A stretch of 55,213 nucleotides of DNA from a virus, in IMG/VR virus record IMGVR_UViG_3300025117_000079, positions 1 to 55,213 of that record. The stretch is one strand, 5' to 3'. The translations under genes and the position numbers were made by a program. Positions within the stretch are counted from its first letter, which is position 1, and every line of letters starts with the position of its first letter. The notes beneath the pieces are model-generated. The model was not told the DNA's origin and ran no database searches. It saw only the letters and a list, made by a program, of their open reading frames with translations. This document shows positions 3,044-53,983 of the stretch, piece after piece.

Positions 3044-3853
3044 TTAAAATAAGATACTACCTGGATGATCCCAAGAAGTGTAAAGATGCCCATCTTGATT
3101 ATAAATCAAACTTCTAATATCATTTGTATGGTTAGAGCTTTGAATACAATAATCAGATAACAAAATACTCATATTCTTATATCCAACCAAACGACTTCCA
3201 TCTACAGTTTCTCTGATAAATTGAAACTTCATACATTCTTTAAGAATAAAATCATAGTTAGCTGTTCCATCATTTTCTATAATATATTCTTCCGTTTTAT
3301 CTGCTTTATTACTACTTACTATGTTTTTTGGTATAGACACTTTTCTAAATATCACTTGTCTGACATTAAGACGTTCACACAAATCTAATACTTTTTTAAT
3401 TGGTTTAAGTGGAAACTTAGAAGTAACATTTAAGCATAGTCTTACTAACATTTTATATTGAGGTATATTTTCAATAAGATTTATCATTGATTGATCAAAT
3501 TCACTATCTATAGATATAGCTATGATATTTACTCCTTCTCTATAAAGAACTGGTAGAAAATCTTCATATCTTTGAGCAAGTAAAAGTCCATTAGTTTGTA
3601 TTTCTACTGGAAATGAATTAAACTTTTGTATTAGTCCTATCATTTCATAGAAGTTAAGAAATGGTTCACCTTTACCAGTAAAGAGTATACTGCTAACTTC
3701 TGCTACTTCTGCTATTTTTGCTACTTTTTTTGCATTTCTTACCATTAGTTGATAATTAGATTCTGGTTCAAAAGTCATTTTACTAATACAATATTTACAA
3801 TTTTTATCACAACCTCTATTTGGGACACAAATAGTAAGATTATTTGCTCTCAT
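3044..3853 (-). CDS. Radical SAM enzyme
   Basis: A 269-residue protein with the CxxxCxxC iron-sulfur motif at residues 15, 19 and 22 (GCDKNCKYC), which binds the [4Fe-4S] cluster and S-adenosylmethionine. A TGKGEP segment follows near residue 60, corresponding to the GGE motif, then alternating beta/alpha segments of a partial TIM barrel. The C-terminus has only scattered cysteines, so no clear SPASM domain. It lies between the MoxR ATPase gene (9 bases upstream) and the DUF3150/VWA genes in the same transcript, so it may act with that module. The radical SAM fold is secure; the reaction cannot be assigned. Confidence 0.85.
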   Translation of the reverse strand: MRANNLTICVPNRGCDKNCKYCISKMTFEPESNYQLMVRNAKKVAKIAEVAEVSSILFTGKGEPFLNFYEMIGLIQKFNSFPVEIQTNGLLLAQRYEDFLPVLYREGVNIIAISIDSEFDQSMINLIENIPQYKMLVRLCLNVTSKFPLKPIKKVLDLCERLNVRQVIFRKVSIPKNIVSSNKADKTEEYIIENDGTANYDFILKECMKFQFIRETVDGSRLVGYKNMSILLSDYCIQSSNHTNDIRSLIYNQDGHLYTSWDHPGSILF

Positions 3854-19844: not shown

Positions 19845-20285
19845 CTATTCCCTTACTATATATTCTTGTTTCTCTTTCAGAATCCCACAATGTTCTTCCT
19901 TATGACACTCCCAACAAAGAGGAATCAGGTTTTCAAATATCATGTTCTCATGATTGTGATCTATATGGTGTATCTGAGGATTTTTACTATTACATTTGAC
20001 ACAGCTATTCTTATAATATCTCAGAACTGATATGTATAGGGGTTTGAAGGCTATATCTATTATTCTTCTTATTGTTTGTCTTTTATATCTTTTCTTTATT
20101 ATTCTTCTAGCACCATATTTGTTTTTAGGAGATCTTACTATTGTCTTTTTTAATCTATACTCTCTTACTAATTTCTCTATTTCAGAATAGGTGAGATTAT
20201 TGATTGCCTTTCCTTTACAGATTTTAGATACTGCCTCTGGTGTTAGTTTTAGACAATCAGATAATGATTTTAGTGTTATCCTCAA
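19845..20285 (-). CDS. HNH endonuclease
   Basis: 146 residues, probably starting at TTG 20285 behind AGGAGAGTTTG. The N-terminus has a helix-turn-helix-like segment (LSDCLKLTPEAVSKICKG). The C-terminal HNH domain shows zinc Cys CVKC, the catalytic IHHIDHNHEN and CWECHKEEH. Typical of a free-standing phage homing nuclease; it sits at the edge of the repeat region. The gene is last in its leftward array. Confidence 0.85.
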   Translation of the reverse strand: MRITLKSLSDCLKLTPEAVSKICKGKAINNLTYSEIEKLVREYRLKKTIVRSPKNKYGARRIIKKRYKRQTIRRIIDIAFKPLYISVLRYYKNSCVKCNSKNPQIHHIDHNHENMIFENLIPLCWECHKEEHCGILKEKQEYIVRE

Positions 20286-23279: not shown

Positions 23280-23759
23280 ATGGCAGACGAGAATCACACA
23301 ACCGTATGTCCATATCATGGTAAAACTACTGCATTGCTTGAGTCAGCTTTAAAAAAAGATGAACAGCAATGTCAGGCAATTAATGAAATACATAAAGATA
23401 TTAACGAAATAAATAAAACTTGTGCGACTACTAGACAATCTTTTTCAGATGCTTTGGATACCAAACGTCAACATTTAAAAGAAGAGATACTAGAAGAGGT
23501 TGATGAAGTCAGAGCAGAAGTAAGTCAAAGAGTACATCTTAAGTTATTTTATGTTTTGATTAGCATATTGATTGCCGTATGTGGATTCCTCTATACAGAA
23601 CAAAGACAAACTAACAGTACTTTAATAGATATAAAAATTGGATTAGAGGTAACAATGAGAGAGTTATCCATTACATCTAATTTACTAGATAAACATATAA
23701 TGCAAACAGACGATTGGAAAAAGACGGTGGAAAGAAGATTAGATAGAGGCGAGAAATGA
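23280..23759 (+). CDS. Membrane-anchored coiled-coil protein
   Basis: 159 residues: N-terminal CPYHGK, a long helical stretch (residues 20-85), a transmembrane segment LFYVLISILIAVCGFLY at about 89-105, then a second helical region. This shape suits a holin-accessory, spanin-like or signalling protein. Its position between an exported protease and later genes leaves a lysis role possible, but no endolysin is near. Overlaps the sugar kinase gene by 4 bases. Confidence 0.6.
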   Translation: MADENHTTVCPYHGKTTALLESALKKDEQQCQAINEIHKDINEINKTCATTRQSFSDALDTKRQHLKEEILEEVDEVRAEVSQRVHLKLFYVLISILIAVCGFLYTEQRQTNSTLIDIKIGLEVTMRELSITSNLLDKHIMQTDDWKKTVERRLDRGEK

Positions 23760-24667
23760 AAAATGTTTTCGTATTTGGTGATCTGATATTAGATAAGTAT
23801 TTATTTGGTAATATAGATAGAATTAGTCCAGAAGCTCCAGTCCCAATCATAGATGTTTCACGTGAAACATATAAATTAGGAGGAGCTGCAAATGTTGCTT
23901 TAAACATCCATAAACTTGGTTGTAAGGTAAGTTTGTGTGGAGTTATTGGTAATGATTCTTACGGTCATGTTTTAAAACAGCTATTAACTGATAATGGAAT
24001 AGATAACTCTTTTATTGTTACAGACAATGATAGAATTACAACTGTCAAAACTAGAGTTGTCTCAAATGATAATAAACATCTTTTTAGAATAGATCGGGAA
24101 GTTAGAAATACAATAACAACTTCTATTCCAGAAATTCTAGACATTATATATATGTTTGTACCACAAATGGATACGATTGTTATTTCTGATTATGATAAAG
24201 GGGTTCTTGCTTATCCACTTTTGCAGGAGATAAAGAATAAGTGTAAGAATAGACCAATGATTGTAGATCCAAAGAAATCACTTAATTATTATGGTGCTAA
24301 TATAATAACACCTAATCGTAAAGAAGCTGAATTGTTTTATGAACAACCTATTGTTACTGATAAAGATGCAGAGGATTGTTGTAGAGAGATCAAAGACAGA
24401 TATAAGTATGAAACGATAGTTTTAACTCGTGGGCCAGATGGTATGACGATACTTAATGGTAAGGACGTTATTCATTCCAGATCAGTTGCTAAGTCAGTTT
24501 TTGATGTAACTGGTGCGGGAGATACTACAATTTCTGTGATTGCCAGATATATAAATGAAAAGTCTTGGAATGAGATAGCTAAATTAGCTAGTTATGCTGC
24601 CGGAGAGGTTGTAAGTCAGTTTGGTACTTCATATGTTACTGAGGCAGATTTACAGGATGTGATCTAA
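23756..24667 (+). CDS. rfaE1: PfkB-family heptose-7-phosphate kinase-like protein
   Basis: 303 residues. Ribokinase/PfkB motifs: VFGDLILDKYLFG at the N-terminus, LGGAANVALN at 41-50, and the catalytic DVTGAGDT at 250-257 with base Asp256. The N-terminal pattern (ISPEAPVPIIDV) is characteristic of the HldE/RfaE kinase domain that phosphorylates D-glycero-beta-D-manno-heptose 7-phosphate at C1. The matching nucleotidyltransferase is not fused but lies at 53405-53983. Together they would make a nucleotide-activated heptose or related sugar. Symbol reflects similarity to the kinase half. Confidence 0.85.
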   Translation: MKNVFVFGDLILDKYLFGNIDRISPEAPVPIIDVSRETYKLGGAANVALNIHKLGCKVSLCGVIGNDSYGHVLKQLLTDNGIDNSFIVTDNDRITTVKTRVVSNDNKHLFRIDREVRNTITTSIPEILDIIYMFVPQMDTIVISDYDKGVLAYPLLQEIKNKCKNRPMIVDPKKSLNYYGANIITPNRKEAELFYEQPIVTDKDAEDCCREIKDRYKYETIVLTRGPDGMTILNGKDVIHSRSVAKSVFDVTGAGDTTISVIARYINEKSWNEIAKLASYAAGEVVSQFGTSYVTEADLQDVI

Positions 24668-25815: not shown

Positions 25816-26373
25816 ATGCCAAGTGGTTCACTATCGGCAGTTGAACGCGTAAAATTGCTATCAGAGGTCAAAGAATTAGTTGAACAAGGTAAATCAGATA
25901 ACCAGATAGCTAATGAACTTGGTGTAACTTTAGGTGCAGTAAAGCGTTCAATTAAATATATAGAAGAACTTTCTCAATCAGTACTAACGACTGAAGAGAT
26001 AAGAACAGCTAGATCTGAAGTTGATAATCAATTCCTAGAGGCTGAAGAAGAGGCACGTAAATTATTCTATGAAGCTCTACAAGGCTATCCAGTAATAGAT
26101 AAAAACGGTAGTGAAGTTCTGAAAGAAGATGGAACTGTATTTAAAAAAGTAGATCGTGGTTTAGTAGAGAAATTTCATCGTCTCTGGACAGAGACATCAA
26201 TGAAACGTGCAGTTATCTATGGACTAGATAAAATCAAACAAGATAACTTCATTCAAGTTAATACTCAGAACAATAATTATGTAGATGACATCAAATTAAG
26301 TAAATCATTACTGGACAAAATTGCAGACCAGATAGTAGAGCAAAAGTCGGTGAAGTCTAATGGAAACTCCTAG
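25816..26373 (+). CDS. terS: Putative terminase small subunit
   Basis: 185 residues. N-terminal helix-turn-helix (GKSDNQIANELGVTLGAVKR at about 26-45), then helical, acidic C-terminal region. It ends 14 bases inside the large-subunit gene, the normal place for the DNA-recognition subunit that guides packaging. Identification depends on HTH plus position. Confidence 0.65.
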   Translation: MPSGSLSAVERVKLLSEVKELVEQGKSDNQIANELGVTLGAVKRSIKYIEELSQSVLTTEEIRTARSEVDNQFLEAEEEARKLFYEALQGYPVIDKNGSEVLKEDGTVFKKVDRGLVEKFHRLWTETSMKRAVIYGLDKIKQDNFIQVNTQNNNYVDDIKLSKSLLDKIADQIVEQKSVKSNGNS

Positions 26374-29300
26374 TCAAGATGCTGTAAAGAAGAAATTGGA
26401 AGAAGTAGCTGGTGAATGTGGAATCGTTTCCGATTGTGTGTTGGAAAAATTGGAAGATAAGTTTGAAAAGGCCAAGAGACAGGACGATTATAGAGATTTT
26501 GTAATTAAAACTAGAGACAACTCATTGGATGAACGTATTCAGTATGTAAAGAAAAAGGAAGAAGAGTTTTGGGAAGAAAACGAACTCTCCGTAGTGAAGT
26601 CTCCATATAGTTTAGATTACAAGTCTAATTATGAGGAGGCACCTAGAGGTGAGGTTGAGGGTGACGGTCCAACTGATTTGAAGTTGATTGTTAAGGCGTG
26701 TGAATACAGACTCGACGCTTATGCTGAGGTGTTCTTCAAACATTTTTTAAAATTACCAAATAGTTTGTTCCATCGATTTTTATACAAGACGTTGCAAAGA
26801 GAGATTAATGGAGGAAAGACGTGCAAATGGGCGATAGCGGCCCCGCGTAGGTCTAGTAAAAGCTCTTTGGTTTCAAATATCCTACCATTATGGTGTACAG
26901 TTTACAACAAACGAAAGTTTATTTTGTTAGTATCAGATACTGCTGGACAAGCAGAGGATTTTTTATCTGATGTAAAAGTAGAGTTAGAGACTAATATGCT
27001 ATTAGCTACGGCTTTTCCTCATGCCGTAGGCAAGGGAAAAGTTTGGAGAACGGATGAGATCATTACTAATAACAATGTAAAAATAAAAGCTTTAGGTACA
27101 GGTACTAAAATACGTGGTAGAAAGTTTGGAGCAGATAGGCCAGATCTTATTATTGGTGACGATCTCGAAAATGAAGAGATGGTGAGATCGGAAATTCAAA
27201 GACGATTTGTGCAGGATGAATGGTTTAATAAAGGATTGATGTTTGCTGGTAGTGATGATGTTCAGTTTTTTATTGTTGGTACAGTTATTGGTAAAGATTC
27301 GTTAATGGCGGCTTTATTAAATCCATCTCAATATCCAGATTGGAGTAGTAGAAGATTTAAAGCCGTTGAAAAGTTTTCCATGTCACCTTTATGGGATAAA
27401 TGGAAACAACTATACATGGATAGGTTTGATTTAGATCGTAAAGAAACATCTCTAAAATTCTTCGAAGATAATAAGGCTGAAATGTTAGACGGTACTGCGG
27501 TATTGTGGCCTGAAGGTAGACCATACTATGAATTAATGCAAATCAAGGCCGGTAATGAATCTGCATTTTTAGCAGAACAACAAAATGAATCAATTGACTT
27601 AACTAAAATTTATGTTACTAAAGAACAACTTCATTGGGAAAGTTTTGATTATGGAGAACACAAAAAAGCAGTAGAGCGTGCATTTAAGTTTGGAGCTATA
27701 GACCCGTCTTTAGGAAAAAAGTCGCATAAAGGAGATTATTCAGCTATTGTGACTGTAGCTAGAGATCCAATAACTGGATATATTTACGTTCTTGATATGG
27801 ATTTAAAACGTAGATCTGTTGATGATCAAATAAATGATATAATAAAACTATATGAGAGATATCCGTGGAGAATGTTTGGGGTAGAAACAGTGGCTTTTCA
27901 GTACGTGGTTGCTTCTGCTTTGAGAAAAAAATCAAGAGAGTTGGGGGCATATATTCCATTAAAAGAAATAAACCAAACTACTGACAAAAAGGTACGATTC
28001 GAGGGTATAGTACCTTTGCTTACAGATGGAACAATCATATTTGATAGAATTAAATATAGACAAAATTCTTCATATAATTTGGCAATAGAACAGATAGTAA
28101 CTTTTACAGGCGAGCAAGACGCACATGACGATGCTTGCTTGTTGGCTGGAAGTAATATAATTACAGATATTGGAGTATTACCAATTGAAGAGATAAAAGA
28201 AGGTATGAATGTTTTAACCCATACCGGAACTTTTAAAAAAGTAACAAAAACTTTTTGTAGGACGTATTCTGGAGAAATATTTAAATTAAAAGCTTCTGGG
28301 TTGGAACCTTTGTATATTACAAATAATCATTCTGTTTTAGTAAACCAATTTGAAGTAATTAAAGACTATAAAAATAGATTATTTTATACAAAAGCTATAG
28401 ATAATTTTTATTTTAAACCTGTAGAGTTCATAAATAAAGAATTAGATTTAGTAAATTCTCCAGTTTTGAAAACAAAACAAAATGTAATTTTAGATATGTC
28501 TAAATACATAAACTATCCAATTATAAAAGAAGAGCAAGTTTATGGTTCTACTTATAAAGGAACAAGATTAAACAATAGATCAAATCCAGTAAATAGATTT
28601 ATAGAAGTTGATGAGAAGTTTGCATTTATTCTTGGTTATTATTTAGCAGAAGGTGGATGTAATAAATCTCACTGTTTTGGATTTTCTGGACATGAGAAAG
28701 AGAATAGAGTAGTAGATTTTTTACGTGAAGAGTTTGGAAAATTTGGTATAGATAAAAGTTATTACTATATTAAAAATAATACAAAATCCAGATCTGTATT
28801 ATTCAATAGTGTTCCTTTTTGTAAATTATTTGAAACATTTGGAAGCAGACATCAAAAACATCTACCATATTTTTGTATGAACTTAGGAGATAAAGAAACC
28901 AAATCTCTTATTTTAGGTTATTTTTTTGGTGATGGTAATTTTACTACTGGAACTGGAAGAAGTATATCTATTTCAGCATCAATAAGTTATCAAATTTATT
29001 TTTTGTTATTAAAAATTGGATTTAGACCAAGTTTGGCTTTTGTAAGACGAAAAGGGAGATGGGAAGGAATAACTGGCAAAATAAAAAGTGATTTTTATTC
29101 TATAGGTTTAAGTGTATTAGAAACTAATGAATTGTTATCTAATTTACCGTCTTTTATAGAAGAAATTTATAAAGATAAAAATTTGAATCTAAAACCACAT
29201 AATTCTATCAATAGTTCTTCTTATAAAAGTACAAAATTTTTATCTAAAAAAATTAGAGAATTAACTTCTTATTGGTATGATGGAGAAGTTTATAATTTAG

Positions 29301-29428
29301 AGGTTGAAGAAGATAATAGTTATGTAGCAAATGGTGTAACTGTACATAATTGTGATGCCTTACAAATGGCAATAGAGATTGCAAAAGCACCGAGGTTTAA
29401 ATTACTAACATCTCAGAATAGGAAATAG
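26360..29428 (+). CDS. terL: Terminase large subunit precursor with intein
   Basis: 1022 codons. The N-terminal ATPase has a Walker A-like AAPRRSSKSS near residue 160 and Walker B LIIGDD near 262-268. The RNase H-like nuclease opens at FGAIDPSLG near 444 and continues with GDYSAIVTV and FGVETVAFQ. At residue 593 a 405-residue intein interrupts the nuclease domain after AHDDA. The spliced product would have 617 residues, ending with CDALQMAIEIAKAP, normal for a large terminase. The mature enzyme packages DNA into the prohead using ATP and cuts concatemers. Confidence 0.93.
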   Translation: METPSQDAVKKKLEEVAGECGIVSDCVLEKLEDKFEKAKRQDDYRDFVIKTRDNSLDERIQYVKKKEEEFWEENELSVVKSPYSLDYKSNYEEAPRGEVEGDGPTDLKLIVKACEYRLDAYAEVFFKHFLKLPNSLFHRFLYKTLQREINGGKTCKWAIAAPRRSSKSSLVSNILPLWCTVYNKRKFILLVSDTAGQAEDFLSDVKVELETNMLLATAFPHAVGKGKVWRTDEIITNNNVKIKALGTGTKIRGRKFGADRPDLIIGDDLENEEMVRSEIQRRFVQDEWFNKGLMFAGSDDVQFFIVGTVIGKDSLMAALLNPSQYPDWSSRRFKAVEKFSMSPLWDKWKQLYMDRFDLDRKETSLKFFEDNKAEMLDGTAVLWPEGRPYYELMQIKAGNESAFLAEQQNESIDLTKIYVTKEQLHWESFDYGEHKKAVERAFKFGAIDPSLGKKSHKGDYSAIVTVARDPITGYIYVLDMDLKRRSVDDQINDIIKLYERYPWRMFGVETVAFQYVVASALRKKSRELGAYIPLKEINQTTDKKVRFEGIVPLLTDGTIIFDRIKYRQNSSYNLAIEQIVTFTGEQDAHDDACLLAGSNIITDIGVLPIEEIKEGMNVLTHTGTFKKVTKTFCRTYSGEIFKLKASGLEPLYITNNHSVLVNQFEVIKDYKNRLFYTKAIDNFYFKPVEFINKELDLVNSPVLKTKQNVILDMSKYINYPIIKEEQVYGSTYKGTRLNNRSNPVNRFIEVDEKFAFILGYYLAEGGCNKSHCFGFSGHEKENRVVDFLREEFGKFGIDKSYYYIKNNTKSRSVLFNSVPFCKLFETFGSRHQKHLPYFCMNLGDKETKSLILGYFFGDGNFTTGTGRSISISASISYQIYFLLLKIGFRPSLAFVRRKGRWEGITGKIKSDFYSIGLSVLETNELLSNLPSFIEEIYKDKNLNLKPHNSINSSSYKSTKFLSKKIRELTSYWYDGEVYNLEVEEDNSYVANGVTVHNCDALQMAIEIAKAPRFKLLTSQNRK
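28136..29350 (+). mobile_element. Intein with LAGLIDADG endonuclease in terL
   Basis: 405 residues. Starts at Cys (CLLAGSNIITDIG) and ends VTVHN followed by Cys as the +1 residue. Block B-like ITNNHSVL with its His and block F-like NLEVEEDNSYVANG are present. Two dodecapeptide-like motifs, ILGYYLAEGG and LILGYFFGDG, indicate a LAGLIDADG homing endonuclease. All splice residues (Cys1, block B His, penultimate His, terminal Asn, +1 Cys) are in place, so both splicing and homing look active. Confidence 0.93.
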
Positions 29429-32556: not shown

Positions 32557-34464
32557 ATGGCTGGTGTAGCTTACTGCACCACTTCTGGGCAACCGGAAGT
32601 TAAAAACTGGGTGAATTGACTGGAAACCTAAATTTAAGGAACAAAAAATGGAATGTCAGATTTGTAAGAAAACTTTTAAAGCGGTAACAAACACTCATCT
32701 TATGAACAGTCATAATTTGACTCCCAAACAATATGAGAATATGTTTGGTTGTTCTACTGTTCCAGAAGGGTGGGTGTCTGGAGAGAAAAATCCGTTTTAT
32801 GGTAAATCTCACAAAGATGGCATTTCAAAAGTAAAGTCTGAAGAGTATAGGGATGCAGCGTCAGAAAGAAGGAAAGGAAAATCAGCTTCTGAATTCTTAA
32901 AAAATATTTCTGTTGAAGAATTTAGAAAACATCAATCAGATGCTCATTCAGGTGAAAGAAATCCAATGTATGGTAAAATCTGGACTAGAGAAAGAAAAGA
33001 AAAACACTCAAGGTTGATCTCTAGAGAAGGAAACCCAAATTGGAGAGGTGGTATAACATCGTACCGATATAATATGAAAGTCTGGAATGATAATCTCAAA
33101 AATAAAGTGAGAGATCGAGACGGATTCAGATGTCAATTGTGTGGTATTCATCAGAATATCTCCAATAAAAAATTGGCAGTTCATCATATTGACTACGATA
33201 AATTCAATTACTCTTTTGACAATCTTATTTCGTTGTGTAACTCATGCCATCCAAAGGTGTCTTATAATAGAGAGAAGTATATGGCAGAGTTTAGAATCAA
33301 ATTGTTCCTTAAACATGGCAATCAGCAGCGAAGCCTATCGAATGTAATAGAAAAAGTAGATAGGAACGTCCAGAGACTAGATCGTGAGGATATTACAACC
33401 AATAACCGATCCACGAGCGCCCGGCTCCTAGACAATTCTAGGATGATGATATAGTCCGACTCTTATCAGAAATGGTAAGGAGATTCCTTAAATAGAATCT
33501 CATAAGATGGTGAAAAAGATCTGAATTCACGGAAGCTATGAAGAAAGATGCTTACCGTTGGTATTTTGAGAATTATCCGGAAAAACCTCCTGTTTATCAG
33601 GATCTATTTGAGGTTGTTCCGTCCAATTCAGCGTATGATATGTTTACCTCTGCGGTTGGTCTTGGAGAGCTTCTGGAAAAACCAGAAGGCGAAGATCTTC
33701 AGGCTGATAGGCCGATTGAGTCTTATACGATTGTTTGCAAGAATAGAACCTTTGGGCGTCTTGTGAGGTTTACTTATGAGACGGTTCAGGATACACAGAA
33801 GGTTGCTAATCTGTTGCAAACGACTGTTGGCAAGTGGGCTAGTTCTGTGATTGAGACCAAAGAAAAATGGTACTCGAAATTTTTTAACTATGGTGCTATG
33901 TCGGCTGGTAATGATGTTTTCAATAACAGCATTGGTGGTGTTATCACCGATTCGTCTGGGAATTTGACCTATGATGGTAAGGCTTTTTTTGCCACGGATC
34001 ATCCTGATAAGGTTGGTAATACCTATAGCAACTACGAGTCTGCCGATTCGTTGACTCCAGATAATTTGAAAGCTAATTATCTAGTTTTTACGTCTACGAA
34101 TAACAGAAATGAGAGAGGTCAGATTATTGAGTGGTCTCCTGACACTCTGTTGGTGCCTCCGGCTCTTACGTTTACTGCAAGGGAGATTTTGAATACTACT
34201 CAAGTCCCTTTTAGTCAGGATAACACTCTTAATGTTTTGACGAGCATAGTCAGCCCTCTTGAATGGAGCTTTTTGACTGATGCTGATGGGTGGTTCTTGC
34301 TGAAGAGGAGATCAGGGCTTATGGCGACAGCTAGGGAAGATGTTATGCTCGATTTCTGGGCTGACGAGACTTCCAAGGACCTCTATGCCTCCATTATGCT
34401 CAGATATGGAGGTTGTGTCTCTAACTGGAGAGGAACTTTCGCTTGTAATATTGCGAGTTCGTAA
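32557..34464 (+). CDS. Major capsid protein, split by a group I intron
   Basis: Exon 1 (32557-32612) encodes MAGVAYCTTSGQPEVKNW. Exon 2 (33519-34464) continues in frame as SEFTEAMKKDAYRWYFENYP; joined they give 333 residues. The unspliced reading frame stops at TGA 32617. The long exon matches Mu gpT-like/HK97-fold major head proteins by pattern (DGKAFFATDHPD and LLVPPALTFTAREIL) and gene order. It would form the capsid shell. Exact junctions are predicted from reading-frame continuity and group I rules. Confidence 0.82.
32613..33518 (+). mobile_element. Group I intron in the capsid gene
   Basis: 906 bases. The 5' splice region TGGGT|GAATTGACTGG resembles that of the T4 td intron. The conserved core shows GAGACTA (33372) and GATATAGTCC (33448), the two strands of P7, followed by a 3' segment ending in G before exon 2. 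Splicing after GGGT and after AAAAAG keeps the capsid frame open. It holds the HNH ORF whose stop codon lies in the P7 strand. The core motif is firm, exact ends are likely but not proven. Confidence 0.8.
32648..33454 (+). CDS. Intron-encoded HNH homing endonuclease with NUMOD3 repeats
   Basis: 268 residues. A Cys/His N-terminus (CQICKKTF...HLMNSH) comes first. NUMOD3-like DNA-binding motifs follow (EKNPFYGKSHKDG and ERNPMYGKIWTRE, then GNPNWRGG). The HNH domain has CQLCGIHQN, AVHHIDYDK and LCNSCHPKV. It would cut intron-less capsid alleles to spread the intron. Its last codons overlap the catalytic core of the intron, so protein and ribozyme share sequence. Confidence 0.9.
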   Translation: MECQICKKTFKAVTNTHLMNSHNLTPKQYENMFGCSTVPEGWVSGEKNPFYGKSHKDGISKVKSEEYRDAASERRKGKSASEFLKNISVEEFRKHQSDAHSGERNPMYGKIWTRERKEKHSRLISREGNPNWRGGITSYRYNMKVWNDNLKNKVRDRDGFRCQLCGIHQNISNKKLAVHHIDYDKFNYSFDNLISLCNSCHPKVSYNREKYMAEFRIKLFLKHGNQQRSLSNVIEKVDRNVQRLDREDITTNNRSTSARLLDNSRMMI

Positions 34465-34568: not shown

Positions 34569-36236
34569 ATGACATTATCCAAACGCGGTGGAAGTAATAA
34601 ACTAAGTTATGAATTTGTAAAAGAGTCTTTTGAAAACGAAGGATATACACTCTTATCAGATACCTATTCAAAAATCACAGAAAAATTACAATTTAAGTGT
34701 CCAAACGGACATGTACGTAGTATGTCTTTTTCTAGTTGGAAACTTGGAAATAGATGTAAACTTTGTTATGACTCTATTAGAGGAAATGAATTACGATTAG
34801 ATTTTGATTTTGTAAAAAAAGAAATTGAAAGTAAGGGGTATAAACTTCTTTCAAATACTTATAAAAGTATTGATTCAAAACTAGATGTTGTTTGTAAAAA
34901 TGGACATACATGGAATACTTCTTACAGATCTATAAAATCTGACAATACATGCATACATTGTTTAAATTCAGAAAAGAATATAAATAGAAAATATACACAC
35001 GAAGAAGTAAAAAATATATTTGCTAGAGAAGGATATTTATTGTATTCTAATGAATATATAAATACTAATTCACTTCTTGATGTTTTGTGTCCAGAAGGAC
35101 ATTATTTTTCTATTACTCTAAGAGAATTTAATAGCGGAGGAAGATGCTCTGTTTGTTTTATGTTAAATAGAGGTAAAACAAGATTATTAGATTTTTCTGA
35201 TGTTAAGAAGTATATAGAGAAAGAAAGATATAAACTAGCTAATGATAATTATACTAATTCAGCAACTCATCTTAACCTTGTTTGTCCCAACGGGCATAGT
35301 TGGAATGTAACTTTTAATAATTTTAAAAGTAATGGAGTTAGATGTCCAAAATGTCCATCTACTAGATCTTCTGGTGAGATAGAAATATATAAGTTTTTAT
35401 CAGATTATTTTAATTCAAACGAGATTACATCTAATGATAAAAGTATTATAACTCCATTTGAGTTGGATATTGTAATTCATCCAAAAAATATAGCTATAGA
35501 ATATTGTGGTGTATATTACCATTCTATAGAAAAAAAGAAGGATGAAAACTATCATTTAAATAAATTAAATCTTTGTAATAATAAAGGTATAAAATTAATC
35601 ACCATATTCGAAGATGAGTGGGTATACAAGAAAGATATTGTTAAACAAACATTATTGTATATTTTAGGACTTTCTAATAATAAATCTGTCTTTGCCAGAA
35701 AGTGTGAAGTTAGGGAAATTGATTCTTCTGAAGCTAGAGAGTTTTGTATAAAAAATCATTTGCAGGGATATACAAATGCACTAATTAAACTTGGGTTATA
35801 TCATAATAATACTTTAGTCTCAGTTATGACATTTAGTAAATCAAATATATCAAGAAACATTAAACCAAAGGAGAATGAATATGAACTTTCTAGATTCTGC
35901 TCAGACTTAAATTTGAATGTTGTTGGTGGTGCTTCTAAATTATTTTCTTACTTCCTTAAAACATATAACCCATCTTCTATTTATTCTTATTCTGATAAAA
36001 GATGGTTTAATGGCAATGTATATAAAAAGTTAGGATTTGACTTTGCACATTCTAGCCAACCATCATATTGGTATTGTGTCAGACAAAAGAGGTATCATAG
36101 ATTTAACTTTAGAAAAAGTAATTTAGTTAATATGCCAAATTATGATGTTAATAAAACAGAACAAGAAATTATGAGTCTCGAAGGATATAGCCGAATATAT
36201 GATTGTGGAACAGATAAATGGATTTTTACGAGGTAA
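34569..36236 (+). CDS. Free-standing homing endonuclease, EDxHD/Vsr-like, with four zinc repeats
   Basis: 555 residues. The first 262 contain four repeats with C(P/K)(N/E)GH cores at residues 44, 109, 174 and 239, an exact 65-residue period, each with a following CxxC pair (probably zinc, DNA-binding). Then a nuclease segment: SGEIEIYKFL, FELDIVIHPKNIAIEYCG, YHLNKL, the pattern of the EDxHD/Vsr-like homing nuclease superfamily. A C-terminal domain of about 180 residues follows. The gene inserted behind the capsid terminator and has its own ribosome site GGAGGAGTTGAT. Likely mobile; nuclease subtype tentative. Confidence 0.7.
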   Translation: MTLSKRGGSNKLSYEFVKESFENEGYTLLSDTYSKITEKLQFKCPNGHVRSMSFSSWKLGNRCKLCYDSIRGNELRLDFDFVKKEIESKGYKLLSNTYKSIDSKLDVVCKNGHTWNTSYRSIKSDNTCIHCLNSEKNINRKYTHEEVKNIFAREGYLLYSNEYINTNSLLDVLCPEGHYFSITLREFNSGGRCSVCFMLNRGKTRLLDFSDVKKYIEKERYKLANDNYTNSATHLNLVCPNGHSWNVTFNNFKSNGVRCPKCPSTRSSGEIEIYKFLSDYFNSNEITSNDKSIITPFELDIVIHPKNIAIEYCGVYYHSIEKKKDENYHLNKLNLCNNKGIKLITIFEDEWVYKKDIVKQTLLYILGLSNNKSVFARKCEVREIDSSEAREFCIKNHLQGYTNALIKLGLYHNNTLVSVMTFSKSNISRNIKPKENEYELSRFCSDLNLNVVGGASKLFSYFLKTYNPSSIYSYSDKRWFNGNVYKKLGFDFAHSSQPSYWYCVRQKRYHRFNFRKSNLVNMPNYDVNKTEQEIMSLEGYSRIYDCGTDKWIFTR

Positions 36237-41321: not shown

Positions 41322-42287
41322 ATGACTGAAGAAGAGAAATTTTATATAGATGAGCCTGTTGTAGTTTCTTTTGCTATTGGTGAATTGGGGTGGTTGTGTC
41401 AATATACACAAGCTAGATGGAGATTTTTAAAAGAAGAAGTTCATAAAGATAAAAAATTTATAGTTATGATGAATAAAAACTTTCATTGTCTTGTTCAGGA
41501 CTTTGTTAGTTTCACTATTGATTTACCTGAATGGTTCTATGATCTGAAATTAGAGCAAGATTGCTACGAAGCCCCACTTCCAGATTCTCCTCCTGGTTCA
41601 CTCACACCGCCCGATGTATATAAAAGATTGATCGAGTATTTCAGAACATTTTACAATAAAGATAAAGCAACTGAGATTTGGATGCCTAGAGGTTATACTA
41701 AAATTTTAGATTATCTTCCTGCAAAATACTACAAGTATTCTACTACTAAAGATTATACAGTACCTAAAACTATCTGCGTGTTCCCACGCGGACGGGCAAG
41801 AGCTGCAAATAGGAATATACCAGCTCATGTGTGGGAAGAATTTGTGCTAAAATTATCTAAGAACGTGCATATTGTTCTTGGAGGGGTTCCTAGTGGTTCT
41901 TGTTTAGCTGATTTTGAACATCCAAACGTAACCAATTTGATTTCTTATAATGGTGAGGATAAACTAGATAAGATTATTTGGCATCTTAATAATTGTTTGT
42001 TATCAGTATCTAGTCAGTCTGGATTAACTCATATAAGTTTGTTAAGTGGATGTCCCACATACGGGATCGGTCCAGAGAAGGAGAGGCATTCTGTAAAAGA
42101 AAATAGATTTTCGACTCCGGTGTCGTGGAGATTTCTGACGGACTATAGGTGCATTGACGCTCAAACTATAATATCAGATGTTGAGTCTTTTTTAGAGGCT
42201 TTAGCAAATCATGATAAACAGGAATTCCAAATCACCCTTACTAATGACATTAATTCATTAAATAATTTGATAGGAACGAAATGTTAA
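41322..42287 (+). CDS. Glycosyltransferase, GT9/heptosyltransferase-like
   Basis: 321 residues. The C-terminal half has ICVFPRGRARAANRNIPAHV, a strand-turn IVLGGVPSG, and a donor-site-like SVSSQSGLTHISLLSGCPTY, the pattern of GT-B heptosyltransferases. The N-terminal half is less conserved. Would transfer an activated heptose-like sugar. Overlaps the HNH gene by 7 bases. Confidence 0.7.
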   Translation: MTEEEKFYIDEPVVVSFAIGELGWLCQYTQARWRFLKEEVHKDKKFIVMMNKNFHCLVQDFVSFTIDLPEWFYDLKLEQDCYEAPLPDSPPGSLTPPDVYKRLIEYFRTFYNKDKATEIWMPRGYTKILDYLPAKYYKYSTTKDYTVPKTICVFPRGRARAANRNIPAHVWEEFVLKLSKNVHIVLGGVPSGSCLADFEHPNVTNLISYNGEDKLDKIIWHLNNCLLSVSSQSGLTHISLLSGCPTYGIGPEKERHSVKENRFSTPVSWRFLTDYRCIDAQTIISDVESFLEALANHDKQEFQITLTNDINSLNNLIGTKC

Positions 42288-43138
42288 CTAAAGTATGTAG
42301 TAAGTGTAAAATTGAAAAAAGTATAGAAGATTTTACAAGAGATTCTTCTAAAAAAGACGGAAGATATTCTTCGTGTAAAAAATGTAAAAGGTTACAAGAT
42401 ATTGACTATTCAAATAGAAATATTGAAAATAGAAAAGAATATAATAAAGAATATCGTAAAAATAATATAAATAAACTAAAAGAACAAGAAAAAAAATATA
42501 GAGATTCTCATAAATTGGAAAGAAAAGAATATATAGAAGAAAATAGAGAAAAAATAAAAATTCAAACAAGAGAATATGATAAAGAATATAGAAAGAAAAA
42601 TAAAGCAAGAATAAAAGAAAATAAAAAAATATATGATAATTCAATAGCAAAGTATGCTACATATTTTGAAAGATTAACTATAGTAGAATCTCCTATTTCA
42701 GATCCAAGTGGACAGTTAATGGTAAAATGTGCTCATTGTGAAAAATATTTTTATCCTACAAATTTACAGATAAGAAATAGAATTGAAGCTTTAAATGGAA
42801 AAGTACACGGAGAAAATAGACTTTATTGTTCAGATAATTGTAAACAATTATGCCCAATTTATGATCAAAATAAATACCCAAAAGGACAAAACCCTAATGA
42901 GAATTATAGAGACGCTGATGTTCAACGACAATGGCGTGAAATGGTATTAGAACGTGATGGACATAAATGTGTTAAATGTGGATCTACTGAGAATCTAATC
43001 GCTCATCATATTGAAGGAGTCAGATGGATTTCAATGGAAGCTGCTGATATTGATATGGGGGTTACATTGTGTAAAATATGTGAGCGTAAGGCACACTCAA
43101 TAGAAGGATGTTCATATTATGACATGCAGTGTAAGTAA
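42281..43138 (+). CDS. HNH homing endonuclease
   Basis: 285 residues. N-terminal CSKCKIEKS...CKKCKR zinc site, a very Lys/Glu/Arg-rich helical linker (residues 45-120), a second Cys cluster, and a C-terminal HNH domain (DGHKCVKCGS, LIAHHIEGVRW, TLCKICERKAH). Extremely AT-rich codon use compared with the neighbouring sugar genes indicates separate origin. Confidence 0.85.
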   Translation: MLTKVCSKCKIEKSIEDFTRDSSKKDGRYSSCKKCKRLQDIDYSNRNIENRKEYNKEYRKNNINKLKEQEKKYRDSHKLERKEYIEENREKIKIQTREYDKEYRKKNKARIKENKKIYDNSIAKYATYFERLTIVESPISDPSGQLMVKCAHCEKYFYPTNLQIRNRIEALNGKVHGENRLYCSDNCKQLCPIYDQNKYPKGQNPNENYRDADVQRQWREMVLERDGHKCVKCGSTENLIAHHIEGVRWISMEAADIDMGVTLCKICERKAHSIEGCSYYDMQCK

Positions 43139-44392: not shown

Positions 44393-45323
44393 AGAAGGAT
44401 TACTTTTTGAGATACAAGACATAATCAATAGTAGATGGGTTGTAAATGGATCTTATACCAGAAAATTAGAAGAACATTTTAAAGAAAAATTTAATGTAAA
44501 GTATGTTTTAGCTTGTTGTAATTGTACAAATGGCCTGATTATTGCAGTAAAGGCACTTAATCTTCCATTAAACGCAATTGTGACCATTCCTTCGTTTACT
44601 TGGGGTAGTACTGAATATGCAGCTCTTTGTTCTACAAATATGGTTGAGTATGTAGATATTGATAAAAATACATGGATGATTGATGGAAAGAAAGTAAATA
44701 ATCATTATTCATATTGTGATGCTGTTATTGCTGTTGATGTGTTTGGTAATATGTGTAATATGAATGGATTAGATCCAAGTTTACCACTTATAATTGATGC
44801 AGCTCACGGTTATGGGTTATCAAAATTAGGACAAAGGGGAAGCATTGAAGTTGTTTCGTTTGCACATACGAAGGTAGTAACGGGGTTTCAGGGAGGGGCA
44901 ATCATAACCAATAATGAAATTTACTATAATAGAATGAAATCACTAGTTGAACTTTCTGCTAAAATGACAGAGATAAATGCTCTTATAGCTTTATATTCTA
45001 TTTCAGAATATGAAGAGAAGATTAAAACGAATGAAAGAATTATAGATGCATACAGATCGTTGATTAAAATTCCATTCAATGAGCAAGTAATACCGGAGGA
45101 AACAAATCATAGTGTATATGCTGTATTGTTTGAAAATAAAAAAGTAAGAGATAAGGTGGCAGAGAATTTTAGGAAGAATGATATTGAAGTTAAAATTTAT
45201 TATACTCCTTTAAGTGAAACAAAGAACACTAGTTGGGTTTATAATAGGATTTTGGCTTTGCCTACGTATGCTGATATGGAAAAGGATGTGGATTTTATTT
45301 GCAAACAGATGAATTCAATCTAG
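44355..45323 (+). CDS. DegT/DnrJ/EryC1/StrS-type sugar aminotransferase
   Basis: 322 residues from ATG 44355 (GGAG seven bases before). PLP-dependent: FVNGSYTRKLEEHF-like start, LACCNCTNGL, the Asp in LIIDAAHGYG, and the PLP lysine about residue 173 in SFAHTKVVTGFQGGA. Converts a keto-sugar nucleotide to an amino sugar. With the SDR enzyme at 48922 it could make a 4-amino sugar. Confidence 0.85.
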   Translation: MLYFNRPPTFKNKEGLLFEIQDIINSRWVVNGSYTRKLEEHFKEKFNVKYVLACCNCTNGLIIAVKALNLPLNAIVTIPSFTWGSTEYAALCSTNMVEYVDIDKNTWMIDGKKVNNHYSYCDAVIAVDVFGNMCNMNGLDPSLPLIIDAAHGYGLSKLGQRGSIEVVSFAHTKVVTGFQGGAIITNNEIYYNRMKSLVELSAKMTEINALIALYSISEYEEKIKTNERIIDAYRSLIKIPFNEQVIPEETNHSVYAVLFENKKVRDKVAENFRKNDIEVKIYYTPLSETKNTSWVYNRILALPTYADMEKDVDFICKQMNSI

Positions 45324-45334
45324 AAAGGGAAAAC

Positions 45335-46615
45335 ATGAAGATAGTCTTGATCTCACCAAAATTTCCAAACATATGGGAACCTCTTGGTCTTGCGAGTATT
45401 TCTTCCTATTGTAGATGGAATGTTCCTAATGTAGATATTGAGTTTTATGATGAAAGCTTTGATGATATAAATCAAATCATATTAGCAGGAGCTAATGCTG
45501 ATTATGTAGGTATATCTGCTACTACAACTACTTATAGACAGGTTCTTAATATAATTAAACAGATTAAACAGATTAACAGCAATGTACGAGTAATCCTCGG
45601 TGGTTGGCACGCAACAACTTCTCCTAGAACAATATTAGACTCAGATATTACTTTTCAGAATTCCAAAAATACTCTAATTGATTATGTGGTAGTTGGAGAA
45701 GGAGAGAAAGCATTTGTAGATATTATAAATGGTATGCACAAACCAGGAATGGTATTGGGTACAAAAATGGAGTTTAAGGATCTACTTTGGCCCGACAGAA
45801 CAATAATCAAACAGGAAAGATTACTAGATCTGTGTGAAAGTATGTGTGGCATTAGAATTGCTTCTTTCCAGAGTAGAAGAGGGTGTCCAATGAGATGCTC
45901 TTTCTGTGGGGAGAAGGCAATGTCAGGCAGTACTAATACAAATGAACCTGCCGTTAGAGTAAGAAATGCAAAAGATGTATTAGATGAAATAGAGTATGTA
46001 AATAATAAATATCATATAGACAAATTTAAATTTGTCGATCCTACGTGGTCTGCGCCAAATTCCGCTGCTATAGAATTCTGCGAAGAGAAGATAAGAAGAG
46101 GAAATAAGATACCTTGGTCTGGTATGGTACACGCCGCTTTTATTAATAAAAGTCTAATGCAACTGATGAAGGAATCAAGTTGTGACCAAATAGATGTTGG
46201 AGTAGAAAGTGGCAGTCAGTCGATACTAAACAAAGTAAGTAAAGGTATTACAATTGATAGAATTAAAAATGTGTTCAGATGGGCCAAAGAAGTTGGATTG
46301 AAAAGAAGAGCATTTACTATTATTGGTTTTCCAGAAGAAACTCCTAATGATATAGAATTAACAAAACAATTAATAAGAGATATACAACCTGATGTTTTGG
46401 GTACGACCGTTCTTACCCCATTCCCCGGAACAAGTTACTACAATCACAGCACAATGAAAGATGTTGATTTCTCAGAATGTGATGAATATTCATGTTCATT
46501 CTGGAGTACTAAATATTTTTCTAATCAGGATTTAGTTAGAATACAAAAAGAGATATATGAAGAATTTAAAGATATAGCTGTTGCACACTTCAAAGAAACT
46601 TGTGAGAAAAAATAA
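45335..46615 (+). CDS. B12-binding-type radical SAM enzyme
   Basis: 426 residues from ATG 45335 (MKIVLISPKFPN) behind AAAGGG. N-terminal Rossmann cobalamin-like domain (VRVILGGWHAT). Radical SAM core with CxxxCxxC at 184/188/191 (RRGCPMRCSFCG). Further motifs: VDPTW, DVGVESGSQSILNKV and IIGFPEETP. Class B-like enzymes catalyse methylations or carbon rearrangements. The usual DxHxxG lower-ligand motif is not evident, so cobalamin dependence is uncertain. Confidence 0.8.
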   Translation: MKIVLISPKFPNIWEPLGLASISSYCRWNVPNVDIEFYDESFDDINQIILAGANADYVGISATTTTYRQVLNIIKQIKQINSNVRVILGGWHATTSPRTILDSDITFQNSKNTLIDYVVVGEGEKAFVDIINGMHKPGMVLGTKMEFKDLLWPDRTIIKQERLLDLCESMCGIRIASFQSRRGCPMRCSFCGEKAMSGSTNTNEPAVRVRNAKDVLDEIEYVNNKYHIDKFKFVDPTWSAPNSAAIEFCEEKIRRGNKIPWSGMVHAAFINKSLMQLMKESSCDQIDVGVESGSQSILNKVSKGITIDRIKNVFRWAKEVGLKRRAFTIIGFPEETPNDIELTKQLIRDIQPDVLGTTVLTPFPGTSYYNHSTMKDVDFSECDEYSCSFWSTKYFSNQDLVRIQKEIYEEFKDIAVAHFKETCEKK

Positions 46616-47337
46616 TGAAAATATGTAGTAAATGTAAACAATTATTAAGTTTAGATAATTTTGTATATTCAAAAATTACAAAAGATCGTAAGCAATCTTG
46701 GTGTAAAAATTGTAAAAATAAGTTAAAAAAAGAATGGTATAATAAATTAGTAAAAAGTAAGCACAAAGAAAAACGAATTCCAAAGATAATTCTTTTAGAA
46801 GGAAAAACTTTTGGTAACTTAATAGTATTATCAGAATATATAAGATGCCATTCTGGAAATAGAGTTAGAACGAAGTGGTTGTGTAAATGCAATAGGTGTA
46901 ATAATTTAAAATATATTAGAAGTGATAGTCTAATGAGTGGAAAAACAACTGATTGTGGGTGTATTGGCAAAGAAAGTACAAGTAAAAGATTTAGAAAAAG
47001 ATATGGAGAATCAGCAAGAAACAAATTATATGCTTCATATGCTTCAGGAGCTAGAAACCGTAATTATGAATTTTCTTTATCTAAAGAAGAATTTTTTAAA
47101 TTAACACAAATGAATTGTTATTATTGTAATTCATCTCCTATTAATATAAGTAAAAATACATGTTATAATGGAGATTATATTTATAATGGGGTAGATAGAA
47201 TTGATAATACTAAAGGATATGTATATAATAATTGTGTTTCATGTTGTAAAAAATGCAATAGAGCAAAAGACACTATGACTGTATTAGAATTTCATGAATG
47301 GATTACTAAAGTATATAATAATTTAAAAATAGAATAG
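46615..47337 (+). CDS. HNH homing endonuclease
   Basis: 240 residues. N-terminal CSKCKQLLS...CKNCKNK zinc site like the HNH at 42281, a middle Cys set (WLCKCNRCNN), and C-terminal NGVDRIDNTKGYVYNN, CVSCCKKCNRAKD (Asn-type HNH). AT-rich. Inserted between two sugar genes with one-base overlap, so likely a mobile gene with precise insertion. Confidence 0.8.
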   Translation: MKICSKCKQLLSLDNFVYSKITKDRKQSWCKNCKNKLKKEWYNKLVKSKHKEKRIPKIILLEGKTFGNLIVLSEYIRCHSGNRVRTKWLCKCNRCNNLKYIRSDSLMSGKTTDCGCIGKESTSKRFRKRYGESARNKLYASYASGARNRNYEFSLSKEEFFKLTQMNCYYCNSSPINISKNTCYNGDYIYNGVDRIDNTKGYVYNNCVSCCKKCNRAKDTMTVLEFHEWITKVYNNLKIE

Positions 47338-49896: not shown

Positions 49897-50044
49897 AGTG
49901 TGTAATAAAAAATTTCATTGGTGTACTAGTTGTGGATATGATACTGACTTACATCCACTTTCAGAAGGATATTGTTCTTGGAATTGTTTAAGAAAAGATA
50001 ATGGACCTGAAATGCCAGAAGACGACGAGGAAGACAATGGATAA
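49886..50044 (+). CDS. Small zinc-finger protein (52 aa)
   Basis: Begins [20 protein letters not shown] with CKVC, CTSC and a CSWNC set, then a very acidic tail ([10 protein letters not shown]). It overlaps the SDR gene end by 11 bases and the next gene start by 8. Unknown function; possibly an adaptor for the radical SAM neighbour. Confidence 0.6.
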
Positions 50045-52145
50045 TCTAAATATAGACCATCATAAATTAATGTACCATCCAGAACTAGTGGCAAAATGGT
50101 TGAATGGTATGGATACTTATCCAATTATGTTAGAGGTTGGACTTACAGACAACTGCCAACATAATTGTAGTTTTTGTTTAGATGGAAACACATTAATAAC
50201 TATGTCAGATTTTTCAGAGAAAAAAATCAAAAATGTAAGACTCGATGATATGATACTAGGATTTGATGAAATTAGTCCAAAAACAGGAAGAGATAAAAAA
50301 GTCTATCCTTCTAAAGTATTAAATATATTTAGTAGAAAAGAAAATGTTATAAAAATAACATTTAATGATAATACTCATTTATTAGTTACAAAAAATCATA
50401 AAATTTTGGCAAATAGAGGACATAATAAGCATTCTTGGAGAAATGCTGGAAAATACAAAATAGGTCAAGATGTTGCATCTTTCCCATATAAAATAAAGAA
50501 AATAGAGAATATAAATCTAAATGAAGATTTATATAAAAAAGGTTATATAGTGGGTATGTTTCTTGGAGATGGATATATTTCATCTTCAGAAAAAAATAAA
50601 CACGGTAATAAAAAAAGATTTAGATTAGCTTTAACAGACATAGAACCTTTAAACAGAATAGCAAATTACTTTGAATATTTTCATATAGATTTTTATTGGG
50701 GTGTATTTGATATACACTTAAATGGAAATAAAAAACCAGCAATATATGGATCTAAATACAATGCTTATGATAATTTGGTAGATTTAATAGTAGATACTTT
50801 TAATAGTAATAATTATGATTACTATAGGGGATTTTTAGCAGGAATCTATGATGCAGAAGGACATATTGATAAAAAATCAAGAACAATAAGAATCAGTAAT
50901 ACTAATAAATTTATTATTGATGAAATTTGTAGATGTCTGGATGGTATTAATATACCATACATAATAGAATTTAATAAAAGAAAAACAAATATTAAAGATG
51001 TGTATAATGTAAGAATTCTAGCTAAAAAACAATTTTATAATCTAGGATTTATAGATATTATAGATCCAGCTATTATTAGAAAAGGAATAACAAATTTTCA
51101 CAATATTAGAATGAGAACTACTAAAGTAATAACAAATATAGAAGAAATTAAAGACAAAATAGATGTTTATAATATAGAAACAGAATCAAAAACCTATATC
51201 GCAAATAATACTTATGTACATAATTGCTCATTAAACTGGATTACTCATTCAAAGAATTATTTAGAAACAGACGTTCTTTGTAATAGAATATTTGAGATGA
51301 CAGTTTTAGGATTGAAATCTGTATACGCTGCCGGTGAGGGCGAACCACTTTTGCATCCAGATGTAGAATATATTATAAAATACTGTCATGCATTAAAATT
51401 AAGAACATCTCTTGCTACTAATGGTCAACTTTTAGATGAACATACTTCAGCAGAAATTCTTCCCTGTCTTTCTTGGATACGAATAAGTCTAGATGCTGCA
51501 AAAGATGAAACTCATAGTAAGATTCATGGTGTGTCTAAAAAATGCTTTCCATTGATTGTAGACAATATAGCAAAAGCTGTTGGTATTAAGAAAAGAAACA
51601 ATCTGGATGTAAATATTGGAATTCAGGCATTGCTTCTTTCAGAAAATATTAATGAGATAGAAGATATAGTTATATTAGCCAAAATGCTTGAGGTGGACAA
51701 TTTACAAATTAAACCAGCACACAATCATCCTAAAAGTAAGTTTAATCCTAATATATATAAATTTTCTTATGAGGGATTACAAGAAGAATTAAAGAAGTAC
51801 AATAGTGATAAATTTAAAGTAATAGTAAGATCTAAAACAATGGAGGAATTATCAGAAGCTAGATGTTATAGTGATTGTTATGGTCCTGATTTCTATGCTC
51901 TTTTATCAGCTAAAGGTGATTTTGTACCGTGCAATATTTATTACAATAAGGAAGAATTTATATTTGGCAATATCTATGAAGAAGGATTTATTGAGATTTG
52001 GGACTCTCCAAGAAGAAAAGAAATAATGAAAAAAGTAGCAGAGATGGAACATAAACAGTGCGGAATATATAAGTGTAGGCAACATATGTTAAATGAATAT
52101 CTCTGGAGAATCAAAAATCCAGAACTTAACGATGTTTTCATCTAA
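50037..52145 (+). CDS. Radical SAM/SPASM-like enzyme precursor with intein
   Basis: 702 codons from ATG 50037 ([12 protein letters not shown]); a longer start lacks a ribosome site. Cluster cysteines C40, C44 and C47 form CxxxCxxC. C47 is at the same time the first residue of a 350-residue intein. After splicing, the +1 Cys ([10 protein letters not shown]) takes its place, giving a 352-residue enzyme. Later motifs: [13 protein letters not shown] (GGE), [10 protein letters not shown], and a C-terminal Cys set (CYSDC, VPCNIYY, CGIYKC) like SPASM auxiliary clusters. Acts in the sugar/peptide modification cassette; reaction unknown. Confidence 0.88.
50175..51224 (+). mobile_element. Intein with LAGLIDADG endonuclease inside the radical SAM motif
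   Basis: 350 residues, Cys1 ([15 protein letters not shown]) to TYVHN, then +1 Cys. Block B-like LVTKNHKIL, block F-like [15 protein letters not shown], and two endonuclease dodecapeptides ([10 protein letters not shown] and [10 protein letters not shown]). Splicing residues intact. Insertion lies exactly between the second and third cluster cysteines' positions, a site under strong constraint. Confidence 0.93.
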
Positions 52146-53404: not shown

Positions 53405-53983
53405 ATGCCTTACATCTACTCTTGTCGTAATAAAGATAATTTATATCAATTTGAACATGGTGCTTTAGAATTTGAAGAGATTAAAAATTGGAGAGAAACT
53501 ACTTTAGAAGCATTTAAATGCCCTGTTTTATTTACTAATGGTTGTTATGATATATTACATCCTGGTCACATTAAAACATTCAATACAATGAAACGTAAGT
53601 ATCCACTATCATTTCTCATTGTAGGACTAAATTCGGACAAATCAGTTAAGAAATTAAAAGGAAATCATAGACCAATTAATGGTGAAGCAATAAGAGATTT
53701 TAATTTAATGTCATTGGCAGCAGTTGATGTTGTTTTTATATTTGACTCTGAAGAAGAATTAGAATTATTGATACAGGCTATTAGACCTACAATTCTATTT
53801 AAGGGAGGAGATTATTCAAAGAAGGCTATTACTGGTGCTGAGTGCATTAAAAAGAACGGTGGACAGGTAATGATTTTAGATAGAGATCCTAAATTTTCAA
53901 CTTCAGATTTAGTTACTAAAATTGGGCATACTTACTTAAAAGAACAATTTGGTGAAAATGTTTTATTAGTGAAAGGAGAGTAA
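53405..53983 (+). CDS. rfaE2: Heptose-1-phosphate nucleotidyltransferase-like protein
   Basis: 192 residues. TNGCYDILHPGHIKTF has the HxGH nucleotidyltransferase motif (HPGH 52-55); IVGLNSDKSVKKLKG, RPIN and ILFKGGDYSKKAITG are characteristic of the HldE C-terminal adenylyltransferase domain. Would activate heptose 1-phosphate with a nucleotide. A separate kinase half is at 23756. An extra 35 N-terminal residues are not part of the core. Confidence 0.87.
   Translation: MPYIYSCRNKDNLYQFEHGALEFEEIKNWRETTLEAFKCPVLFTNGCYDILHPGHIKTFNTMKRKYPLSFLIVGLNSDKSVKKLKGNHRPINGEAIRDFNLMSLAAVDVVFIFDSEEELELLIQAIRPTILFKGGDYSKKAITGAECIKKNGGQVMILDRDPKFSTSDLVTKIGHTYLKEQFGENVLLVKGE

Follow-up and report, generated by a model that had tools for sequence, protein, structure and literature searches.

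The window, meaning the whole 55,213-nt stretch of DNA analysed here (a 55-kb virus record), carried a radical SAM/SPASM gene into which a class-1 intein of LAGLIDADG type, 350 residues long, was inserted exactly at the third cysteine of the cluster motif CxxxCxxC. This intein was an addition to the known radical SAM cases, and the wider site preference was the more interesting result. Few enzymes are as sensitive to oxygen as radical SAM enzymes, and an intein forced to leave before the cluster forms would couple protein splicing to cluster assembly. Such coupling would be no one-gene curiosity: the same cysteine was invaded repeatedly, in different radical SAM families and in both bacteria and phages, and this recurrence makes two ideas testable, namely redox-gated splicing in nature and homing endonucleases able to track a protein motif through genes that are not homologous.

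The interrupted gene, its intein and its phage

The host gene was a single open frame to position 52145 with its start at 50037, overlapping the stop codon of the small ORF before it, or at an alternative upstream ATG at 50001 (ORF list and translation). Its features were as follows:

50037..52145, + strand: host gene for a radical SAM/SPASM protein of the phage, intein in frame (ORF, translation, Pfam)
50037..50174, + strand: N-extein, ending CQHNCSF (translation)
50154-50156, + strand: cluster cysteine C52 in the N-extein (translation, alignments)
50166-50168, + strand: cluster cysteine C56 in the N-extein, Cys-3 relative to the intein (translation, alignments)
50175..51224, + strand: intein of 350 aa, Cys1 ... 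TxxH ... two LAGLIDADG motifs ... VYN ... HN (translation, Pfam, tree)
50388..50399, + strand: block B TxxH, TKNH (motif reading)
50547..50573, + strand: LAGLIDADG motif 1, IVGMFLGDG (motif reading, alignment, PDB sequence match to I-DmoI)
50835..50861, + strand: LAGLIDADG motif 2, LAGIYDAEG (Pfam, motif reading, alignment)
51225..52142, + strand: C-extein, starting with the +1 Cys at 51225-51227 (translation, alignment)
51876..52064, + strand: C-extein SPASM domain, region of the auxiliary Fe-S cluster (Pfam PF13186, residues 626-688)

The codon at 50175 encoded C59, which served both as intein Cys1 and as the third cysteine in CQHNCSFC; after splicing, the place of this third cluster cysteine is taken by the +1 Cys. 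The sequence-only reading had placed the intein at 50175-51224 and had given these two cysteines the same roles; its coordinates were exact (cysteine codons at 50154, 50166 and 50175; +1 Cys at 51225), and both roles were borne out by translation and alignment. As it had also said, the three-Cys spacing was kept in the precursor despite the 350-residue insert: the unspliced protein still read CxxxCxxC, Cys1 filling the third position, with the barrel expected after the motif displaced by the length of the intein.

Pfam models Radical_SAM (PF04055; 7.8e-11) and SPASM (PF13186; 1e-9) both matched the C-extein over their cut-offs. Within the intein, LAGLIDADG_3 (PF14528; E=1.5e-13) was over its cut-off, and Intein_splicing (E=6.3e-8) was slightly under it (33.0 bits vs the curated 35.8). 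The class-1 residues were complete (Cys1, TKNH, penultimate His, terminal Asn350 and +1 Cys), and both LAGLIDADG motifs retained an acidic residue (GDG and AEG). Position F:4 was Asn rather than the usual Asp; Asn was also present there in 31/81 viral inteins chosen by their C-terminal junction and without regard to host. GC content was 23% (GC3 10%) in the intein vs 31% (22%) in the extein, a low GC that this phage's terminase intein and some of its HNH-like genes have too. As modelled by AlphaFold, the precursor had a mean pLDDT of only 59, with the intein part mostly at 65-89; the model's best PDB matches were PI-PfuI (E 1.1e-16), TliVMA, PI-SceI and I-DmoI, and SuiB, a radical SAM enzyme, was also among the matches.

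The extein resembled radical SAM proteins of the SPASM group whose substrates are unknown, and its best NCBIfam match, TIGR04317, was far below cut-off. Membership in the prokaryotic viperins (pVip) was rejected (62.5 bits vs a cut-off of 180 for NCBIfam NF038283; 62.1 bits for PADLOC pVip). The same phage carried nucleotide-sugar dehydratase/epimerase and aminotransferase genes, together with two rfaE-domain genes separated by about 29 kb, each scoring a little under its curated cut-off:

23756-24667: heptose-7-phosphate kinase (rfaE domain I)
53405-53983: heptose-1-phosphate adenylyltransferase (rfaE domain II)

These separate domain I and domain II genes suggest, by sequence, an NDP-heptose pathway in the virus. 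The Solidesulfovibrio homologue described below had a PfkB kinase gene and a SIS protein gene as neighbours, and the host enzyme may make or modify a surface sugar.

Mobile elements seem to be plentiful in this phage. A second intein of 405 aa (Cys1 ... HN, +1 Cys) occupied 28136-29350 in the terminase large subunit gene (26360-29428) and was not close kin of the radical SAM intein. Free-standing HNH-endonuclease-like ORFs were recognized by eye at 19845-20285 (- strand), 32648-33454, 42281-43138 and 46615-47337, two of them very AT-rich. The window also contained two further, intein-less radical SAM genes at 3044-3853 (- strand) and 45299-46615 (+ strand), one with a B12-binding domain, and a 555-aa protein (34569-36236, GC 27%) that combined a Mom-like domain for DNA modification with repeats of a zinc-ribbon-like segment.

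Empty-site homologues and predicted splicing

An intein-less radical SAM homologue on a Solidesulfovibrio carbinolicus plasmid could be aligned with the spliced protein from end to end (100% coverage) at 33% identity, and an intein-less viral homologue (L314) showed 36% identity over residues 1-352; a further viral match (L315) was partial at 24%, and homologues from Azospirillum, Streptomyces and phages also aligned with the spliced protein. The intein-less homologues aligned straight across the junction, C52 and C56 were invariant in two alignments, and C40/C44/C47 of the spliced protein were invariant in a six-row alignment, so the motif was placed correctly and the insert was truly an insert. 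Scans of viral contigs with the intein alone and with the C-extein alone found no close relatives, and viral contig scans found no near-identical intein-less allele of the host gene.

We are highly confident in reading the insert as a canonical class-1 intein with a LAGLIDADG homing endonuclease, set at the third Cys of CxxxCxxC in a phage SPASM enzyme, whose removal restores CQHNCSFC and [4Fe-4S] binding, whose precursor is inactive, and which belongs to a selfish lineage specialised for this site. Cys1 would begin an N-to-S acyl shift, the N-extein would pass to the +1 Cys, Asn350 would cyclise, and the ligated enzyme would recover CQHNCSFC and could then bind its [4Fe-4S] cluster. We infer both splicing and endonuclease activity, and the unspliced precursor, its barrel divided in two, would have no activity. 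Activity of the enzyme likely depends on splicing, as the sequence-only reading had supposed, since a continuous barrel is required after the third cluster cysteine. The homing target would be a cysteine-triplet codon pattern; the lineage would favour the third Cys because a conserved triplet of cysteines supplies both a DNA target that is conserved and, at +1, a nucleophile already in place.

Two other readings of the insert were weighed against this canonical intein. The three cysteines might not be the cluster motif at all, with the intein lying in some other Cys-rich segment; in the interrupted protein, Pfam Radical_SAM did align with the C-extein part only, but the alignment refuted this reading, as the motif opened the Radical_SAM domain in intein-less homologues and its cysteines were invariant and not elsewhere, leaving it next to no probability. 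The sequence-only reading had named as refuting an alignment with the motif cysteines elsewhere, or a lack of splicing in vivo together with a lack of inteinless homologues; the alignment placed the cysteines in the motif, and inteinless homologues were present in the Solidesulfovibrio plasmid and viral L314. A decayed passenger that no longer splices, in a gene effectively dead, would fit the high AT content of the insert and the Asn at F:4; it is nevertheless very improbable given that the frame was uninterrupted, no catalytic residue and neither endonuclease motif was lost, and every cluster and SPASM cysteine of the extein was conserved.

Inteins at cluster cysteines in other proteins

In genome contigs, a DNA pattern for NPYxGCxHxCxYC followed by an intein start matched at least 119 stretches. 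Both junctions could be read in 68 of 80 loci taken from these matches, always at the third Cys, which on the N-side was demanded by the pattern itself; the C-junctions were ...HN/CFAR or CYAR (slash, splice point). Searched with the NCBIfam model NF038136, 296 Actinomycetota genomes included about 25 with one long match through the intein region, and many others split cleanly at profile 76/335, the empty site. In viral contigs, two DNA patterns in which CxxxCx[FY]C runs into an intein start picked out about ten different types of host that had the third Cys at both intein junctions, including:

L134 group and L175: B12-binding radical SAM host
L145 and L174: SPASM-like host
L162, L163/165/170 and L168: SplB-like host
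L157: spore-photoproduct-lyase-like host
L176: QueE-like host, with an intein that looks HNH-type
L160: third-Cys intein

Pfam backed a radical SAM assignment for most of these viral hosts, L160 and L165 being below cut-off and L168 having no match. Three loci that fitted the viral pattern (L161, L169 and L173) were rejected, as they looked like ordinary intein-less radical SAM proteins (L161 read fully). Inteins at other cluster cysteines of viral radical SAM proteins were found at Cys1 (L181 and L182) and at Cys2 (L184). Third-Cys-like C-junctions numbered 0/81 among the viral inteins sampled regardless of host, so radical SAM proteins are a minor host class overall. Third-Cys inteins also occurred in DUF5131 'three-Cys' proteins (L009 1866-3701 and L340); the L009 gene, on a Streptomyces plasmid, had no annotation in the PLSDB table.

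Two apparent radical SAM cases in phages were rejected: (i) H1/L003 (KX853510.1 Rctr197k_024), annotated as 'radical SAM protein-like', was actually a SNF2-like helicase with a related intein, and its label probably came from intein similarity; and (ii) H7 was a NinG protein with a related intein. The NinG intein lay at CHAECRH/C, again a CxxxCxxC, and the helicase had no such motif.

The best matches of the window intein were Rv2578c inteins, and the terminase intein of the same phage was not among them. In an 86-intein tree, whose branches were long, the window intein fell into one clade (97) with the Rv2578c, SplB-like viral, L174 and DUF5131 inteins; the NinG and helicase inteins, examples found through similarity to the window protein, were also within it, and six third-Cys inteins, like the terminase intein, lay outside. 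The same clade was recovered in a 48-intein tree (99/98), in which the mini-intein of L160 joined the window intein on few columns. Placing all third-Cys inteins in one group was rejected (p-AU 0.0004), and a grouping of the lineage that excluded the NinG and helicase inteins was not (p-AU 0.15).

The Rv2578c set had been gathered by motif pattern; a lineage profile was built from inteins alone, with no host sequence and with most rows Rv2578c-type. It matched in 40 of 396 Actinomycetota genomes: 35 Rv2578c-type hosts, one DUF5131 three-Cys protein, one QueE-like protein and three weak matches in other proteins. The N-side site was read in 34 of the 37 radical SAM/three-Cys cases and was the third Cys every time; the remaining three were Rv2578c-type by NF038136 profile search. 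The QueE-like host (L349, G102:C4) carried a same-lineage third-Cys intein whose first residue appears to be Ser; the third cluster cysteine would thus be missing from its precursor before splicing.

Judged by these trees and profiles, the window intein is a member of a lineage found at the third Cys in Rv2578c/SplB-like, QueE-like, DUF5131 and SPASM hosts, and inteins unrelated to it also occupy the third cluster Cys, a single origin being rejected by the AU test. A broader view is put forward more tentatively, as a possibility somewhat short of an even chance: the third cluster Cys would be a superfamily-wide landing site, where one lineage follows the cysteine-triplet motif through hosts with distant or no kinship (Rv2578c/SplB-like, SPASM, QueE-like, DUF5131 and even NinG) and several unrelated inteins have converged, either because the endonuclease reads spaced TGY codons or because the Cys-3/Cys1 pair makes precursors safer to carry.

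Redox control of the window intein is plausible by analogy. As a redox switch, a C56-C59 disulfide would block splicing in oxidising conditions, and the oxygen-sensitive enzyme would be freed only when the cell is reducing. The published precedent is the Pyrococcus abyssi MoaA intein, which has the same Cys-3/Cys1 spacing and whose native disulfide blocks splicing (PMC10663303, PMC3922620); recurrence of the site across radical SAM families, with more than one invasion, would also fit a benefit of Cys at -3. Such gating is not implied by the sequence, however, because the CxxC motif puts a Cys at -3 of every third-Cys insertion, and a Cys there is thus no sign of selection; moreover, the inteins at cluster Cys1 and Cys2 lack the redox-trap geometry, and the Ser-starting intein of L349 would be incapable of such a disulfide. 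We consider the switch unlikely, and prefer the selfish homing intein.

Comparison with known systems

MoaA is a radical SAM enzyme. In its P. abyssi intein, a native Cys-3/Cys1 disulfide blocks splicing under oxidation (Callahan 2011, as reviewed in PMC10663303 and PMC3922620), and the spacing of this pair is that of the second and third cluster cysteines. The window intein and the MoaA intein shared a radical SAM host, Cys at -3 plus Cys1 (C56 and C59 in the window precursor) and a CxxC across the N-junction, but MoaA is an archaeal cofactor enzyme and the redox trap was shown for the MoaA intein; motif position and lineage relation of the latter were judged from the published Cys-3/Cys1 geometry.

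NF038136, the 'intein-containing Rv2578c family radical SAM protein' model, was another prior case. It matched the window protein across the intein and motif, but membership was rejected (76 bits vs a cut-off of 700), the junction being alike. The window and Rv2578c inteins (blastp E about 1e-40) shared the LAGLIDADG lineage, the third Cys of CxxxCxxC and the HN/C junction, while the NF038136 host was SplB/PA0069-type (NPYRGCxHxCxYC) and mainly actinobacterial and the window host was a phage SPASM enzyme. The sequence-only reading had been aware of no well-known case in a radical SAM cluster motif, a view overturned by P. abyssi MoaA, NF038136 and the many further loci above. Among the papers searched, none paired 'intein' with 'CXXXCXXC', or 'intein' with 'Rv2578c', and recurrence of the third-Cys site across radical SAM families has apparently gone unreported so far.

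The intein of viral contig L174 was a near neighbour in the trees, likewise at the third Cys of a radical SAM/SPASM-like host, but it came from a different virus and showed 28% identity overall. The Mycobacterium SufB intein, studied for conditional splicing (PMC8891592), also resides in an Fe-S protein, but the SufB host is a cluster assembly factor, whereas the window host is a radical SAM enzyme.
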